Shown: piece by piece, positions 3,717 through 60,665 of the stretch | Layout of the letters: each line of letters opens with the position of its first letter | How positions within the stretch are numbered: the stretch's first letter is position 1 | Source of the DNA: Verrucomicrobiota bacterium | GTDB lineage: Bacteria > Verrucomicrobiota > Verrucomicrobiia > Opitutales > Opitutaceae | Length of the DNA stretch: 64,000 bases | Direction of reading: 5' to 3' | Assembly: GCA_016235555.1 (NCBI GenBank) | Contig: JACRKC010000014.1 | Location: 1 to 64,000, forward strand | The notes under the pieces: model-generated | What the model was told of the DNA's origin: nothing | Databases searched by the model: none | The model's input: the letters and a program-made list of their open reading frames with translations, nothing else | Position numbers and translations under genes: made by a program

Positions 3717-3791
3717 GTAGGGCGGGGTCGCCGAACCCCGCCGTTTCGTTTCCTGCGACGGACTCGGCGGGGTGCGGCGACCCCGCCCTAC
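3717..3791. repeat. Palindromic element PE-G between convergent genes
   Basis: A near-perfect inverted repeat of about 27-base arms: GTAGGGCGGGGTCGCCGAAC on the left and the complement of GTAGGGCGGGGTCGCCGCAC on the right, with one mismatch. It lies between the ends of fcl and the convergent nuclease gene and may act as a bidirectional terminator. The terminal GTAG on the minus strand supplies the TAG stop codon of the nuclease gene at 3790-3788. Confidence 0.85.
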
Positions 3792-16564: not shown

Positions 16565-16630
16565 GCCACGAATGAACACGAACAAACACGAATTCATCTG
16601 TCTTCGTGTTCATTGGTGTGCATTCGTGGT
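16565..16630. repeat. Palindromic element PE-E supplying the start of the DUF4450 gene
   Basis: Left arm CCACGAATGAACACGAACAA with CACGAATTC; right arm TTCGTGTTCATTGGTGTGC with ATTCGTGG. The ATG at 16572 lies inside the left arm, and the first roughly 20 codons of the downstream gene are element sequence. Confidence 0.8.
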
Positions 16631-19600
16631 TGCTTTGATCAGTGGTTGGCCAAGCCGCAGCCACGCCCAGGCCCCGGGTGCGTTGCGGGTCACGCCGAAC
16701 CTCGAAAGCAACATCGACCGCCCGCTGCGCTACCGGCCGGACGGGACGGACTTCGTCATCGCGAATGGCGCGGAGACCTTCAATCGCCCGCTCTACGGCG
16801 GCAACACGGCGTTTCGCGTCGATGGTGGCGACAAGCCCGAGTTCGTGCTCTACCTGCCGGGCCGCGGCGGCAACCTGCGGCTCGGCATGCACCGCGCGGC
16901 CGGCACGAAGTGGCTGCACGCTGCCGCGAAGATCGAGACGCGCTACCGGCCCGGCGAGTTGCTCTACGAAATCCGTGATCCGCTGCTCGGCGCGGATGGC
17001 GTGCTGCGGCTCGCGGTGCTGGCGTATCACCAGACCGAAGGCGTCATCGTGCGCGTGGAGCTGGGCGGTAGCGGCCGAGGTGACGAGGCCGGGCCTGAGA
17101 GGAGCACCAGGGCCGGCGCCAGCCTCGTTACCTCGGCTGCTACACTCGAACTCGTCTTTGCCTACGGCGGCATCAACGGCCAGCGCGGCGCACGCGATGG
17201 CGACATCGGCACCGAGCGCGTGCCGATCAGCGAGTGGTTCCAGCTCAAGCCGGAGTTCTGCCGCGACAATGCGATCGAACTCCGCGACGGTGACTTCACG
17301 CTCACCGCCAGGGCCGCGACGATCGTCGGGCTCGCGCCCGCCGGCACGCGGTTGCGCGTCGCCGATGCCGCGCAGTGGAGCGATCCGGCGGCGCTGCTCA
17401 CGGCGCAGTATTTCGCGGCGCCGCAGCTGCCCGTGGTCGTCGGCCGCGCACCGCTCGTGAGCGGACACCCGGCTTTTCTGTCCCTGCAACGCGTGACCGC
17501 GACCACGGCCGCGGCCGAGGAACTCGACACCTACAAGGCCGTGACCGCCGATCGTCCGGGCGTGAACCGCCCGGCCCCGCGCTTCAAACTCGCGCCGGCG
17601 TTCGCGACCGCGGACTTGCCGCGGTTGTTCGACGAGACGGAAACGCACTTCGCCGCGCTGCGCTCGCGGGTGAGCGTCGACACACCGGACCCGTTTCTCA
17701 ACGCGGCCGTGGGCGCGCTGAACGTCGCCGCCGACGCCGTGTGGGACGAGCCGCAGGAAGCGATCATGCACGGCGCGATCGCGTGGCGCTCGAAGCTGCT
17801 CGGCTGGCGCGGACCCTACGCGCTCGACGCGCTCGGCTGGCACGAGCGAGCGCGGAAGCACTTCGAGTATTGGGCGACGCGCCAGAACCAGGATCCGATT
17901 CCGGAGAAGCTCCCGCCGCCCGACGAAAACACCAACCTCGCGCGCAGCGAGAAGGCGCTGCACTCGAACGGCGACATGTCGAACAGCCACTACGACATGA
18001 ACCTCGTCTACATCGACGCGCTCTTCCGCCACCTGCGTTGGACGGGCGACGTCGAGTTCGCGAAAAAAATGTGGCCGGTGATCGAGCGGCATCTCGCGTG
18101 GGAGCGCCGGATGTTCCGGCGCGAGTTCACGGTCGGCGCGGAAAAGCTGCCGCTCTACGAAGCCTACGCCGCGATCTGGGCGAGCGACGATCTGCAATAC
18201 AGCGGCGGCGGCACCGCGCACGCGAGCGCCTACAATTTTTTTCACAACCAGGAGACCGCGCGCCTCGCCCCGCTGGTCGGCGCCGACCCCACGTCGTATG
18301 CGCGCGAAGCGGAATTGATCGCCCGGGCGATGCGCGAGTTGCTGTGGGTGCGCGGAGAGGGTAGGTCGGGGTTTACGCCCGACATGTCGGGCGTAAACCC
18401 CGACCTACAGGCTGGCTGGTTCGCCGAGTGCAAGGACTGGCTCGGCCTGCAACGCGTGCATCCGGCCGCGGCGGTGTGGAGTTTTTATCACACGATGGAT
18501 TCCGGTCTGCCGACGCCGCAGGAGGCGTGGCAGATGACGCGGCAGATCGACACGCAGGTTCCTCACATTCCGGTGCGCGGGCCGGGCGTGCCGGAAGGTC
18601 TGCACACCGTGGCGTCGAGCAACTGGCTGCCCTACTCGTGGTCGATCAACAACGTCGTGATGGGCGAGGCGCTGCACACGGCGCTCGGTTTCTGGCAGGC
18701 TGGCCGCGCGGACGAGGCGTGGCGGATCGCGAAGGGCTCGCTGACGGCGGCGATGTTCATGGGCATCTCGCCGGGCAACGTCGGTTCGATGAGCTACCTT
18801 GATGTCTACCGGCGCGAGTCGCAGCGGGATTTCGCGGATGGCTCCGGCGTCACGTCGCGCGCGATTGTGGAAGGATTGTTCGGGGTGAAACCGGATGCAC
18901 TCGCGGGTGAACTGCGGGTCGAGCCGGGCTGGCCGTGGCAATGGACACACGCACGGCTGGGGCATCCCGACATCGATTTCAGCTTCCGGCGCGATGCCAC
19001 GACGCTGCGCTACATCGTGACTCCACGGTTGGCGCGGCCTGTGGCGTTGCGGCTGCGCGTGCCGGTTTTCGGTGCGACGGCGCGCGTGACCATCAACGGG
19101 AGGGAAGTGTCGCCGCGGCTGCGTCGGGGAACCGAGCGGCGGCTGGAGATCGAGAGTGCACCGGCGGAACGCCACGACATCGTGGTCGTCTGGCAGGGAA
19201 CGCCGTCCGGCGATGCGGTGCCGGGCGAACCGCGCGTGACGTGGCCACCGGCGAAGGCGGCGGCATCCGGGGCGCGGCGCGTGGCGGTCGCGGCCTCGGA
19301 GACGATCGATCTTGCGGGCCGCTTCAACGACCGCGTGACCCAGATCTTCAAGAACGAGTATCGGGCGCCACGCTCGCCGTTTGTGTCACTCGCGTTGCCG
19401 AAGCAGGGGATCGGCGCGTGGGCGGGGCATGTGAACGAGACGGCGGAGATCGACGACACCGGATTGCGCGCGCTCGCGACGAAGGGTGGTGGCAAATTCG
19501 CGCTCCCGAACGGCACCGAGTTTGCGACGCCGGGTGAGACGGGAGCAAAAAACGTGATTTTCGTTTCGCAGTGGGACAACTATCCGCGCGAGGCGACGGT

Positions 19601-20012
19601 GGCGCTCGCGGGAAGGGCCGGCGGCGTGGCGCTGCTCATGGCCGGTTCGACGCATCACATGCAGAGCCGATTCGACAACGGCGAGGTGATCGTGGCCTAC
19701 GCCGATGGCACGATCGCGCGACTCGCCTTGCGCAACCCCGAGACCTGGTGGCCGATCGAACAGGACTACTTCATCGACGATTTTCAGTTTCGCACCGAGG
19801 GATCGCTGCCGGTGCGGGTGGATTTGAAGACGGGCGACGTGCGCGTGCTCGAGCGCGAGACGTTCAAGGGCAGGGGCGGAAAAATTCCGGGCGGCGCGGC
19901 CACGGTGCTGGAGTTGTCGCTCGATCCGACAAGGGAGCTGAAGTCGCTTACCGTGCGCGCACTCGCCAACGACGTGGTGATCGGGTTGATGGCGGCGACG
20001 CTGGCGCGGTAG
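16572..20012 (+). CDS. DUF4450 domain protein, probable exported glycoside-active enzyme
   Basis: The 1146-residue protein has the DUF4450 hallmark near residues 50-110 (FVIANGAETFNRPLYGGNTA, then FVLYLPGRGGNLRLGM) and a central alpha-rich part resembling six-hairpin glycosidases (GAIAWRSKLLGWRGPYALD, SNSHYDMNLVYIDALFRHLR), so a role in oligosaccharide cleavage is likely. A signal peptide is predicted at residues 15-33, ending RSHAQA; the preceding codons come from a PE-E repeat. Two more palindromes lie in frame: PE-H at 17068-17143 (residues about 166-191) and a perfect 48-bp PE-A at 18361-18408 (residues about 597-612). The stop TAG at 20010-20012 coincides with the GTAG end of a further palindrome. 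Neighbours suggest sugar catabolism. Confidence 0.78.
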   Translation: MNTNKHEFICLRVHWCAFVVALISGWPSRSHAQAPGALRVTPNLESNIDRPLRYRPDGTDFVIANGAETFNRPLYGGNTAFRVDGGDKPEFVLYLPGRGGNLRLGMHRAAGTKWLHAAAKIETRYRPGELLYEIRDPLLGADGVLRLAVLAYHQTEGVIVRVELGGSGRGDEAGPERSTRAGASLVTSAATLELVFAYGGINGQRGARDGDIGTERVPISEWFQLKPEFCRDNAIELRDGDFTLTARAATIVGLAPAGTRLRVADAAQWSDPAALLTAQYFAAPQLPVVVGRAPLVSGHPAFLSLQRVTATTAAAEELDTYKAVTADRPGVNRPAPRFKLAPAFATADLPRLFDETETHFAALRSRVSVDTPDPFLNAAVGALNVAADAVWDEPQEAIMHGAIAWRSKLLGWRGPYALDALGWHERARKHFEYWATRQNQDPIPEKLPPPDENTNLARSEKALHSNGDMSNSHYDMNLVYIDALFRHLRWTGDVEFAKKMWPVIERHLAWERRMFRREFTVGAEKLPLYEAYAAIWASDDLQYSGGGTAHASAYNFFHNQETARLAPLVGADPTSYAREAELIARAMRELLWVRGEGRSGFTPDMSGVNPDLQAGWFAECKDWLGLQRVHPAAAVWSFYHTMDSGLPTPQEAWQMTRQIDTQVPHIPVRGPGVPEGLHTVASSNWLPYSWSINNVVMGEALHTALGFWQAGRADEAWRIAKGSLTAAMFMGISPGNVGSMSYLDVYRRESQRDFADGSGVTSRAIVEGLFGVKPDALAGELRVEPGWPWQWTHARLGHPDIDFSFRRDATTLRYIVTPRLARPVALRLRVPVFGATARVTINGREVSPRLRRGTERRLEIESAPAERHDIVVVWQGTPSGDAVPGEPRVTWPPAKAAASGARRVAVAASETIDLAGRFNDRVTQIFKNEYRAPRSPFVSLALPKQGIGAWAGHVNETAEIDDTGLRALATKGGGKFALPNGTEFATPGETGAKNVIFVSQWDNYPREATVALAGRAGGVALLMAGSTHHMQSRFDNGEVIVAYADGTIARLALRNPETWWPIEQDYFIDDFQFRTEGSLPVRVDLKTGDVRVLERETFKGRGGKIPGGAATVLELSLDPTRELKSLTVRALANDVVIGLMAATLAR
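17068..17143. repeat. Palindromic element PE-H inside the DUF4450 coding sequence
   Basis: Left arm GTAGCGGCCGAGGTGACGAG with GC, right arm GCCTCGTTACCTCGGCTGC with TAC; two mismatches over 22 pairs. The frame remains open and encodes a hydrophilic stretch including GRGDEAGPERSTRAGASLV between LGG and TLELVFAYGG. A diverged relative starts at 131. Confidence 0.85.
18361..18408. repeat. Perfect 48-bp palindrome (short PE-A) inside the DUF4450 coding sequence
   Basis: GTAGGTCGGGGTTTACGCCC continues to GACATGTC at the centre and then its exact reverse complement, ending CCCCGACCTAC. It is read in frame as 16 codons (GRSGFTPDMSGVNPDL). The full-length copies at 21043, 39214 and 60372 are 67 bp; this copy lacks 19 central bases. 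Confidence 0.95.
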
Positions 20013-20849: not shown

Positions 20850-21138
20850 GGCGCGTGGCGCGTTGGGCAGCGAGTGCCGCCCTTTCAGGGCTTTGTTTCT
20901 TGTTGATCAAAAACCCAGCGCGTTGCGCTGGGCTATCGACTGCCGCCCCGTTGGGGCTGAAGCGGTCAGACGGACAACGGCCCGCCCGCAACTCGCGTCT
21001 TATCCCAACGACTGTTGAAGAATGGACTATTGGGTCCCGTGGGTAGGTCGGGGTTTATCCCCGACATCCGCCGTCGGCGGACAAGTGTCGGGCGTAAAGC
21101 CCGACCTACGATCATCCAAATCTCAACAGCCGTTGGGC
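20850..21138. repeat. Intergenic stretch with two palindromic elements
   Basis: No gene seen. From 20880 to 20968 there are short hairpins built on CCCAGCGCGTTGCGCTGGG and GCCGCCCCGTTGGGGCTG. From 21043 to 21109 lies a 67-bp PE-A copy (GTAGGTCGGGGTTTATCCCC to GCCCGACCTAC), itself enclosed by outer arms CCCAACGACTGTTGAAG (from 21004) and CAACAGCCGTTGGG (to 21137). The outer arm ends right at the stop codon of the PEP-CTERM gene. Confidence 0.85.
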
Positions 21139-38993: not shown

Positions 38994-39564
38994 CTTTTTT
39001 GCCGAACAGTGTTATTCGGCCTTACTCGATGGCCTTAGCGGGAGAGGGTTCATGGTGGGGACTGAGTGACGGAAATCACGCAAAGGCAACGGCCAAGTCG
39101 GGAGGGTAAGTTTTCGGAGGTGGCTGGAGGCGTCGGCGGAAGGCCTTACTGGCGGGAGTGAAAGCCTTACCTTATACCAAGCCTGCGGCAGAATGGACTA
39201 TTGGGGCCCGTGGGTAGGTCGGGGTTCATCCCCGACATCCGCCGTAGGCGGACACGTGTCGGGCGTAAAGCCCGACCTACGACCATAAGCCAGCCGAGGA
39301 GGGTCAAAGGCCAGCCGAGAGAGGCCAGCCGAGAGGGTCAGAAGAGCCGAGAGGGTCAGGTCTTGACTCTTGACAGACGCCGTCGTCGCCGGAGGGGACG
39401 CGTCTCGGGGCGGGCGGTCCGCTCGCTGGCGCTTGCGGCTGCCTGGCGCCAGGCCTCCGGGTCGCGACTCTGCGCTGCGCCTGCTGGCGTTCAACCGGGC
39501 GGACCGCCGGCTCGCGCGCGCCGCGACGAGGCTGCGCCGCGTCGCGTTTCCTTCGGGGGCCGTC
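38994..39564. repeat. Intergenic repeats upstream of the cassette-like genes and downstream of cheD
   Basis: No gene seen. GCCGAACAGTGTTATTCGGC at 39001-39020 is a short hairpin that may be a truncated attC-like site. A 67-bp PE-A copy lies at 39214-39280, preceded by GAATGGACTATTGGGGCCCG, which nearly repeats 21020-21039. From 39291 to 39372 a degenerate tandem of about four units of GCCAGCCGAGAGGGTCA follows. The remainder to 39564 is very GC-rich with small inverted repeats. Confidence 0.7.
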
Positions 39565-60189: not shown

Positions 60190-60665
60190 GCCAACCACGC
60201 AATCGGCCGTAGCGGCCGACCCCTCGGCCAGCCCAGGGCGGGCCGTGAGGAGGCAGGGATCAGATGATGGTCGCACCGCCGCCTCGTGACCGCGGCTGCT
60301 GCTGCGCTTCGGGGATTTCGACTGCACGGTTACGGGCGATGCCAATGGCTTTTGATATTTGGACGTTGGCCGTAGGTCGGACTTTACGCCCGACACTCGT
60401 CCGTCTTTGGCGGATGTCGGGGATAAACCCCGACCTACCCTCGCAACCGTAAGATCCAAGATTCATGTGACGTTGGTATGAGGGCGGTCCCCTGCGATCC
60501 GGCGGGTGGGTCTCGGCAATTTTTGCCGCGCCTTCCTGTCCGTTTTGTGTTCCGCGGTTTTGGGGGGCGGGCAAGCGAGCGTGATAACTTTAATTCGTTG
60601 GCCTGTTTGATTTAGCAAATACACGGCGAGCCTTGGCATCGGCATTGCGATACAGCGCGCGACCC
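60190..60665. repeat. Intergenic region between fliR and flhB with a PE-A copy
   Basis: No gene seen. Near 60207 there is a small hairpin on GCCGTAGCGGC and GGCC/GGGCGGGCC. A 67-bp PE-A copy in opposite orientation to those at 21043 and 39214 lies at 60372-60438 (GTAGGTCGGACTTTACGCCC to CCCCGACCTAC), with the flank GATATTTGGACGTTGGCC upstream. An AT-rich tract (GATAACTTTAATTCG, TGATTTAGCAAATAC) precedes the flhB sigma-54 site. Confidence 0.85.
60634..60649 (+). promoter_or_regulatory. Sigma-54 promoter of flhB
   Basis: TGGCATCGGCATTGCG has GG-N10-GC and differs from the flgB and fliK sites at only a few positions. Expected transcription start is near 60660, about six bases before the flhB ATG at 60666. 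Confidence 0.85.

Follow-up and report, generated by a model that had tools for sequence, protein, structure and literature searches.

How does a perfect 48-bp palindrome come to lie inside a protein-coding gene without closing its reading frame? The question is raised by a gene of the DUF4450 family in a genome of the Opitutaceae, which lies in the window—the whole stretch of 64,000 nucleotides that was analysed. The initial annotation had read this palindrome as a dispersed repeat turned into a coding insertion, had derived it from a 67-bp copy by the loss of 19 bp and had compared it to the palindromic elements known from Rickettsia. The idea of an insertion is right and turns out to be general, whereas the 67-minus-19 history and a rule by which the length has to be a multiple of three do not hold. 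Our own reading, to which we assign a probability of roughly 0.93, is that a REPIN—probably moved by RAYT transposases—was inserted in frame in a loop of the DUF4450 protein, and that the 16 residues added by it most likely are functionless and tolerated.

The palindrome is a REPIN

In a direct test of the sequence, the palindrome is its own reverse complement across all 48 bp, and the symmetry stops there. Both its exactness and its ends, GTAGGTCGG/CCGACCTAC, are as initially annotated. No other perfect even palindrome in the window is as long—the runner-up measures 22 bp—and the chance expectation of a perfect 48-bp palindrome in the window is ~5e-9, as calculated from the base composition. 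Half-sites of the type GTAGGTCGGGGTTTA are found nine times in the window with at most three mismatches, vs 0.45 expected.

The palindrome is a REPIN, that is, two inverted 23-bp REP units with GTAG heads and a spacer of 2 bp (Table 1). The unit is laid out as GTAG-GTCGGG-GTTTACG-CCCGAC, with GTAG outermost and AT between the two inverted units. In the usual unit types these 23 bp bear a palindromic stem–loop with a 7-bp stem and a 5-nt loop; in the chimeric unit of the window copy the stem is 6 bp by sequence. GTAG stands at both ends of the window copy, while for other copies GTAG formed part of the search rule.

Table 1. Positions of the DUF4450 gene, of the REPIN within it and of further REPIN copies in the window
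Feature	Position	Strand	Basis or remark
DUF4450 gene, 1146 aa, without stop or frameshift; predicted fold like GH94/GH95-type enzymes	16572..20012	+	ORF scan, profile match, structure model
48-bp REPIN, a perfect palindrome made of two head-to-head GTAG REP units	18361..18408	+	read in frame, DUF4450 residues 597–612
REP unit 1, chimeric (G at position 11, CG at 16–17), GTAG head, stem GTCGGG/CCCGAC	18361..18383	+	sequence and unit typing
Spacer AT, 2 bp	18384..18385	.	sequence
REP unit 2, inverted, identical to unit 1	18386..18408	-	sequence and unit typing
67-bp REPIN copy, 21-bp spacer, intergenic, longer-repeat flanks	21043..21109	.	
67-bp REPIN copy, intergenic, same longer-repeat flanks as the copy at 21043..21109	39214..39280	.	
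67-bp REPIN copy, intergenic	60372..60438	.	

Insertion in the DUF4450 gene

The open reading frame around the palindrome matches DUF4450 (PF14614) with an E value of 1.4e-30. Read on either strand, the palindrome has a stop in two of its phases and is open in the third. The DUF4450 gene reads the open phase, in which the palindrome encodes RSGFTPDMSGVNPDL; residues 597–612 of the protein are GRSGFTPDMSGVNPDL. The 16 in-frame codons without stop that had been annotated are indeed part of a frame that stays open throughout 1146 codons. The protein is presumably expressed, and the tryptic peptide spanning the palindrome-coded stretch would be SGFTPDMSGVNPDLQAGWFAECK.

Homologues were compared in two sets that share some genomes. 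The first consists of 18 homologous rows of relatives, one of which (L048) was read in the wrong frame, and the remaining 17 align across the site without the 16 residues. The closest relative (L032), with 71% protein identity over residues 19–1146, is 16 residues shorter at the site; the net gain is 18 residues vs most other relatives and 13 vs L034. The second set comprises named DUF4450 loci, namely the best 80 of 303, whose nearest members belong to Opitutae and Opitutaceae. Here 79 loci are scorable—L150 is without the anchors—and none of these 79 carries the inserted 16 residues. Between the conserved anchors, 71 loci have 6 residues, four have 4, two have 8, one has 12 and one (L071) has 28, while the protein of the window has 24. 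This alignment of homologues, which the initial annotation had suggested for residues 597–612, supports its view of a palindromic repeat turned coding insertion. With the nearest homologue only 71% identical in protein, the comparison gives no empty site at the DNA level.

A pseudogene—the caveat of the initial annotation—or an assembly artefact might also place a palindrome in a gene, given a draft genome of 140 contigs and the proneness of palindromes to misassembly. However, the 1146 open codons, positive coding scores on both sides of the palindrome, the 71% identity along nearly the entire protein and further copies within genes such as leuS and gatB speak against this, and we consider its probability close to negligible.

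The structure model of the DUF4450 protein, calculated from 33 sequences, reaches a mean pLDDT of 81, and its fold resembles GH94/GH95 enzymes. A search of solved structures with the protein sequence gave one insignificant match (E 0.41). Nine segments of the model have a pLDDT below 50, and one of these is exactly 597–612, located between the predicted strands 592–594 and 615–617. Part of this low confidence is expected, as hardly any sequence of the alignment covers these residues.

In L071 (CAIMFY010000104.1), the same DUF4450 loop holds an unrelated insertion of ~22 residues; a check for a decayed REP found no GTAG palindrome in it. Hence, the loop accepts other DNA too. An imperfect palindrome at window 16565–16635 (CCACGAATGAACACGAA...TTCGTGTTCATT...CATTCGTGG) overlaps the predicted DUF4450 start; its 16-mers occur at most twice each in the sampled genome.

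Copies in the genome, their lengths and flanks

The genome (G000; 8.03 Mb in 140 contigs) contains 225 half-sites GTAGGTCGGGNTTTA, and the unit pattern GTAGGTCGGGNTTTANNCCCGAC matches it at 214 places. Copies were analysed in a sample of 1.51 Mb, in which 120 stretches were added to the window: 100 lie around matches or on the rest of the contig of the window; the other 20, which total 400 kb from six long contigs, were spaced regardless of matches and hold four copies. The sample yields 134 such palindromes. Ten belong to other families and 124 are paired copies of the REPIN family, i.e., head-to-head dimers, though one of them (L157, 58 bp) is probably palindromic by chance. A purpose-made gene model based on codon usage places 90 of the 124 in intergenic DNA, 18 at gene edges and 16 inside genes. 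Forty-five copies are 67 bp long—among them the dispersed ones that had been annotated in the window (Table 1)—29 are 48 bp, 15 are 63 bp and 35 have other lengths. A second GTAG family (GTAGGGCGGGGTCGCC...) is present in the same genome, at window 3717–3791.

Some copies are embedded in longer repeats. Flanks with inverted ends of their own (TACCAACGGCTG ... CAGCCGTTGGTA) surround 15/15 of the 63-bp, 23/45 of the 67-bp and 2/29 of the 48-bp copies, and are met at 3/1000 random places; those 63- and 67-bp copies are therefore the cores of a repeat of ~130–140 bp. A looser second flank signature (GTAGCCGC or GCGGCTACACTT) accompanies 11/45 of the 67-bp and 11/29 of the 48-bp copies, and 184/1000 random places. 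With 2/29 in the first longer repeat and 11/29 bearing the second signature, the notion that 48-bp copies are always without shared flanks was dropped. The window copy has neither signature.

These numbers bear on the history given in the initial annotation, by which the insertion of a 67-bp element was followed by a central deletion of 19 bp that restored the frame. Both forms do contain the same two 23-bp units, and shortening the spacer from 21 to 2 bp accounts for exactly 19 bp. However, 48 bp is a standard form of its own: it is the second commonest length, and 17/29 of its copies are intergenic, so that selection for the frame is needless to explain it. In addition, the window copy lacks the longer-repeat flanks that surround the 63-bp copies and roughly every second 67-bp copy. 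We therefore hold such a deletion to be highly improbable.

A tabulation of lengths inside and outside genes, as proposed in the initial annotation and here covering the 1.51-Mb sample, also shows that length modulo three, to which that annotation had pointed, is not the rule. The 63-bp form is divisible by three and has an open frame, yet 0/15 of its copies lie inside genes; conversely, copies of 50, 52, 56, 61, and 89 bp lie within genes as well. The 48-bp form is distributed as 7 inside to 17 intergenic vs 1 to 57 for 63 and 67 bp together (p 5.8e-4) and 0 to 15 for 63 bp alone (p 0.03 vs 48 bp). Restricted to copies without either flank signature, 48-bp copies are 5 inside, 7 intergenic and 4 at edges, and for the remaining lengths (neither 48, 63 nor 67 bp) the counts are 7 inside, 7 intergenic and 8 at edges. 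This likeness indicates that a length of 16 codons is convenient, not required, and that the contrast in placement between 48 and 63/67 bp mostly reflects the longer repeat.

Sister copies inside genes

Seven 48-bp copies lie inside six genes, all in the same phase—which is nearly enforced by the method, because a gene call must be open. The six copies besides that of the DUF4450 gene, in five genes, code in frame for the same kind of peptide. Over all lengths, the named targets are LeuS, UvrA, PurL, GatB, MetH, xanthine dehydrogenase (two copies) and a CusA-type pump; further targets are an ABC exporter, an NnrE-type protein, a Mur ligase, an HrpA-type helicase, an Ada-type protein and the N-terminal part of NuoC. 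Two cases are weak: the coding signal is poor for the 67-bp copy in L238, and the copy in NuoC lies upstream of the conserved domain.

Relatives of these genes allow the net insertion to be read. For 48-bp copies it amounts to +48 bp in DUF4450 (vs the closest relative), at site 1 of xanthine dehydrogenase (3/3 relatives) and in the ABC exporter (two relatives, the others being longer and variable). LeuS has gained 36 bp vs 25/29 relatives; three more give +30 or +39, and one carries another palindrome. Among copies of other lengths, the net insertion is +51 bp for the 52-bp copy of PurL (5/5 relatives), +69 bp for the 61-bp copy of MetH (7/8), +45 bp for the 61-bp copy of GatB (5/7, the other two being 2 residues longer elsewhere), +48 bp for the 69-bp copy of HrpA (4/7), +78 bp for the 89-bp copy of Ada (5/5), and +42 bp for the 56-bp copy of NnrE (one relative). 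The second GTAG family behaves alike in one gene: its 72-bp copy at L152 11775–11846 lies in frame in a hisC-like aminotransferase gene with a net gain of 69 bp (8/8 relatives). Net gains were read neither for CusA and UvrA, which are too variable, nor for Mur ligase and NuoC, with one relative each and ambiguous loops; site 2 of xanthine dehydrogenase has zero relatives in the set.

Every net insertion that could be measured is divisible by three, also for in-gene copies of odd length. These values imply that the 48-bp form can insert cleanly, and that odd-length copies sit with altered flanks. The +36 bp instead of 48 bp in LeuS in turn means that insertions are not always clean, or that flanks changed later. 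Since the relatives are distant, loop changes unrelated to the insertion are indistinguishable from it. A target site duplication, as in a classical MITE, would find no space in the net +48 bp of two genes, but for a base-by-base view of the empty site the relatives are too distant.

RAYT transposase genes

Genome G000 gives ten Y1-transposase matches, some in doubtful frames. Two RAYT genes—L065 on contig C59 and L070 on contig C69—are bordered on both sides by paired copies of this very REP. Another family of GTAG palindromes borders the RAYT of L068 (C139) on both sides and that of L063 (C56) on one side. Several RAYT/REP pairs hence coexist in this genome.

When 100 genomes of the family were searched with the C59 RAYT protein, 84 gave a match. 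Five genomes (G000, G031, G084, G015, and G079) have RAYTs with 56% or more identity to it, and all five fall among the 15/100 genomes with the REP unit. The chance of this is ~4e-5 as calculated by hand, for a cut of 56% that was chosen after the list was seen, where identities outside G000 drop from 56% to 51%. The remaining 10/15 unit-bearing genomes are without a close RAYT. In G015 and G079, the RAYT gene is located between two REP units, the gene of G079 having one stop. The joint presence of RAYT and REP unit is a correlation; it is consistent with the REPIN being a non-autonomous mobile element that is probably moved as single-stranded DNA by the RAYT (Y1/HuH) transposases of the same genome.

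Other genomes and repeated strikes on one loop

In 80 stretches around unit matches from 11 further genomes of the family, 66 copies were found. Again 48 bp is well represented, here as the commonest length (n = 23), and 7/66 copies, one of them in UvrA of G079, are inside open frames according to the gene model trained on G000.

Two proteins appear to have been struck more than once. The UvrA linker, which is length-variable among relatives, carries a REPIN of the same family in G079 (L424 ~1828–1886, 59 bp) and in G000 (L174, 50 bp), i.e., in two genera. The LeuS hairpin that holds a 48-bp copy in G000 (L189) is occupied in leuS of G001 (L307 2215–2266) by a GTAG palindrome of 52 bp that belongs to a different REP family. 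The LeuS hairpin was hence struck independently by unrelated REPINs in two genera. One LeuS loop with unrelated REPINs in two genera looks new. Genome G003, which we take to be O. terrae, has zero exact matches of the REP unit. A scan of L272, one of its two uvrA genes, by a GTAG-head rule that puts GTGG heads outside the search, gave no GTAG palindrome and did not reproduce the published uvrA dimers of that species.

Perfect arms and position 16

The perfect symmetry of the window copy is uncommon. Of the 122 pairs that were typed, 87 consist of a G-type unit (G at position 11, TC at 16–17) and a C-type unit (C, CG), and because the element is mostly such a junction of the two types, it usually is imperfect; perfect palindromes make up 2/29 of the 48-bp copies. 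The chimeric unit (G, CG) is present within the genome sample only in the window copy, in both arms, and one further chimeric unit was found in G023, where its partner is C-type. A perfect palindrome from two identical chimeric units looks new. Its arms might stem from a template-switch correction of an imperfect palindrome or from the doubling of one chimeric unit; both fit. A general homogenisation of arms is unsupported, as the arms share 2/206 deviations from type vs a mean of 4.6 in shuffles (190 elements of this and other genomes). Homogenisation of the window copy only is possible.

Position 16 is C in 9/15 in-gene G-type units vs 2/77 intergenic ones in G000 (p 2.8e-7, post hoc), two of the nine being both arms of the window copy. 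Together with the RNA of the palindrome, which would fold very stably at −45 kcal/mol (z −10.3, computed), this bias could hint at selection for a function, either of the 16 residues as a binding or regulatory tag or of an mRNA hairpin that slows translation. However, the target proteins are unrelated to each other, the residues sit in a loop of low predicted order, and the bias is unseen in the 66 elements of other genomes (1/7 vs 2/44, p 0.36). A selected function hence appears very improbable to us.

Proposed origin and its implications

We favour the in-frame insertion of a REPIN. One copy would have entered the DUF4450 gene at the length-variable loop between two predicted strands, and a clean insertion in the open phase would have added 16 residues while the gene stayed open. 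Insertions in the other phases would place a stop in the gene and would presumably be lost. As the element is a palindrome, nearly the same peptide (RSGF-PD-SG--PDL) results in either orientation. The added peptide most likely is without function and merely tolerated by the protein.

On a more general level, REPINs might repeatedly supply essential proteins of this lineage with new loop sequence. Free-standing copies—with 48 bp as the commonest single length—would enter genes either way round with nearly the same peptide; REPINs, unrelated ones included, would strike the same tolerant loops repeatedly, as in LeuS and UvrA; and in-gene copies would be reshaped later, here to a perfect palindrome. 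This generalisation is tentative, and we regard it as unlikely in its present form.

The locus offers a countable case of selfish DNA writing new peptide into working proteins, with the element in some twelve identifiable genes of housekeeping or metabolism, the presumed transposases in the same genome and insertion-free relatives for comparison. This makes it testable whether RAYT-moved REPINs insert cleanly, and which share of the loop-length variation among bacterial homologues is due to decayed palindromes. What makes the case interesting is how clean the insertion is (16 codons, a perfect palindrome), how many sister insertions there are, and that the LeuS loop was struck more than once.

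Comparison with known systems

The Rickettsia palindromic elements (RPE) are said to have been described by Ogata et al. in 2000 and 2002. In later papers, RPE are palindromic selfish DNA that is found in frame in many unrelated genes and adds peptide to their products; they bear a CGTC tag (RPE-4, RPE-6) or measure ~150 bp, no dedicated transposase is known for CGTC REPs, and RPE are reported to lose arm identity over time (PMC3733652, PMC6649704, PMC10969869). In contrast, the arms of the window copy are perfect, and the sequences differ as far as the tag goes, which here is GTAG, not CGTC. The parallel to Rickettsia drawn in the initial annotation stands for the mode of action and, as far as the tag, for the unrelated sequence, but RPE-4 and RPE-6 of R. 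conorii are CGTC REPs and hence belong to a sister class of REPs (PMC3733652, text). The window element works like an RPE—by in-frame insertion into unrelated protein genes—without being one.

In the REPINs of Pseudomonas fluorescens SBW25, a REP doublet is an inverted repeat that forms one hairpin and is the proposed replicating unit; nearly all of these REPINs lie outside genes, and frequent spacings are 71 and 110 bp (Bertels and Rainey 2011, PMC3116915). Here, by contrast, the form with a 2-bp spacer is common and copies enter genes. Further background on REPINs and RAYTs is available in the text of PMC8266576.

The unit described here and the double strike on LeuS have no description in the literature searched, which comprised open-licence text without figures or supplements. 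Closest to our case are the GTAG REPs, published as 24 families. As stated in the text of that work, REPs are located inside genes of several species, with O. terrae bearing the most intragenic GTAG repeats; its GTAG-17 forms head-to-head dimers with 1–2 bp between the partners, intragenic repeats often are dimers, some ORFs or genes are struck twice, and two uvrA genes are struck (Di Nocera et al. 2013, PMC3733652). As far as this text goes, the O. terrae dimers share with ours the GTAG-tagged palindromic units, the head-to-head arrangement, spacers of 1–2 bp, the location inside ORFs and uvrA as a target; they may differ in the unit itself, as the window unit is without an exact match in G003, the presumed O. 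terrae genome. Because intragenic GTAG REP dimers were published in 2013, in a presumed relative, the kind of event is already known. The DUF4450 insertion hence opens no new class of element, but is a good fresh example of a described event.
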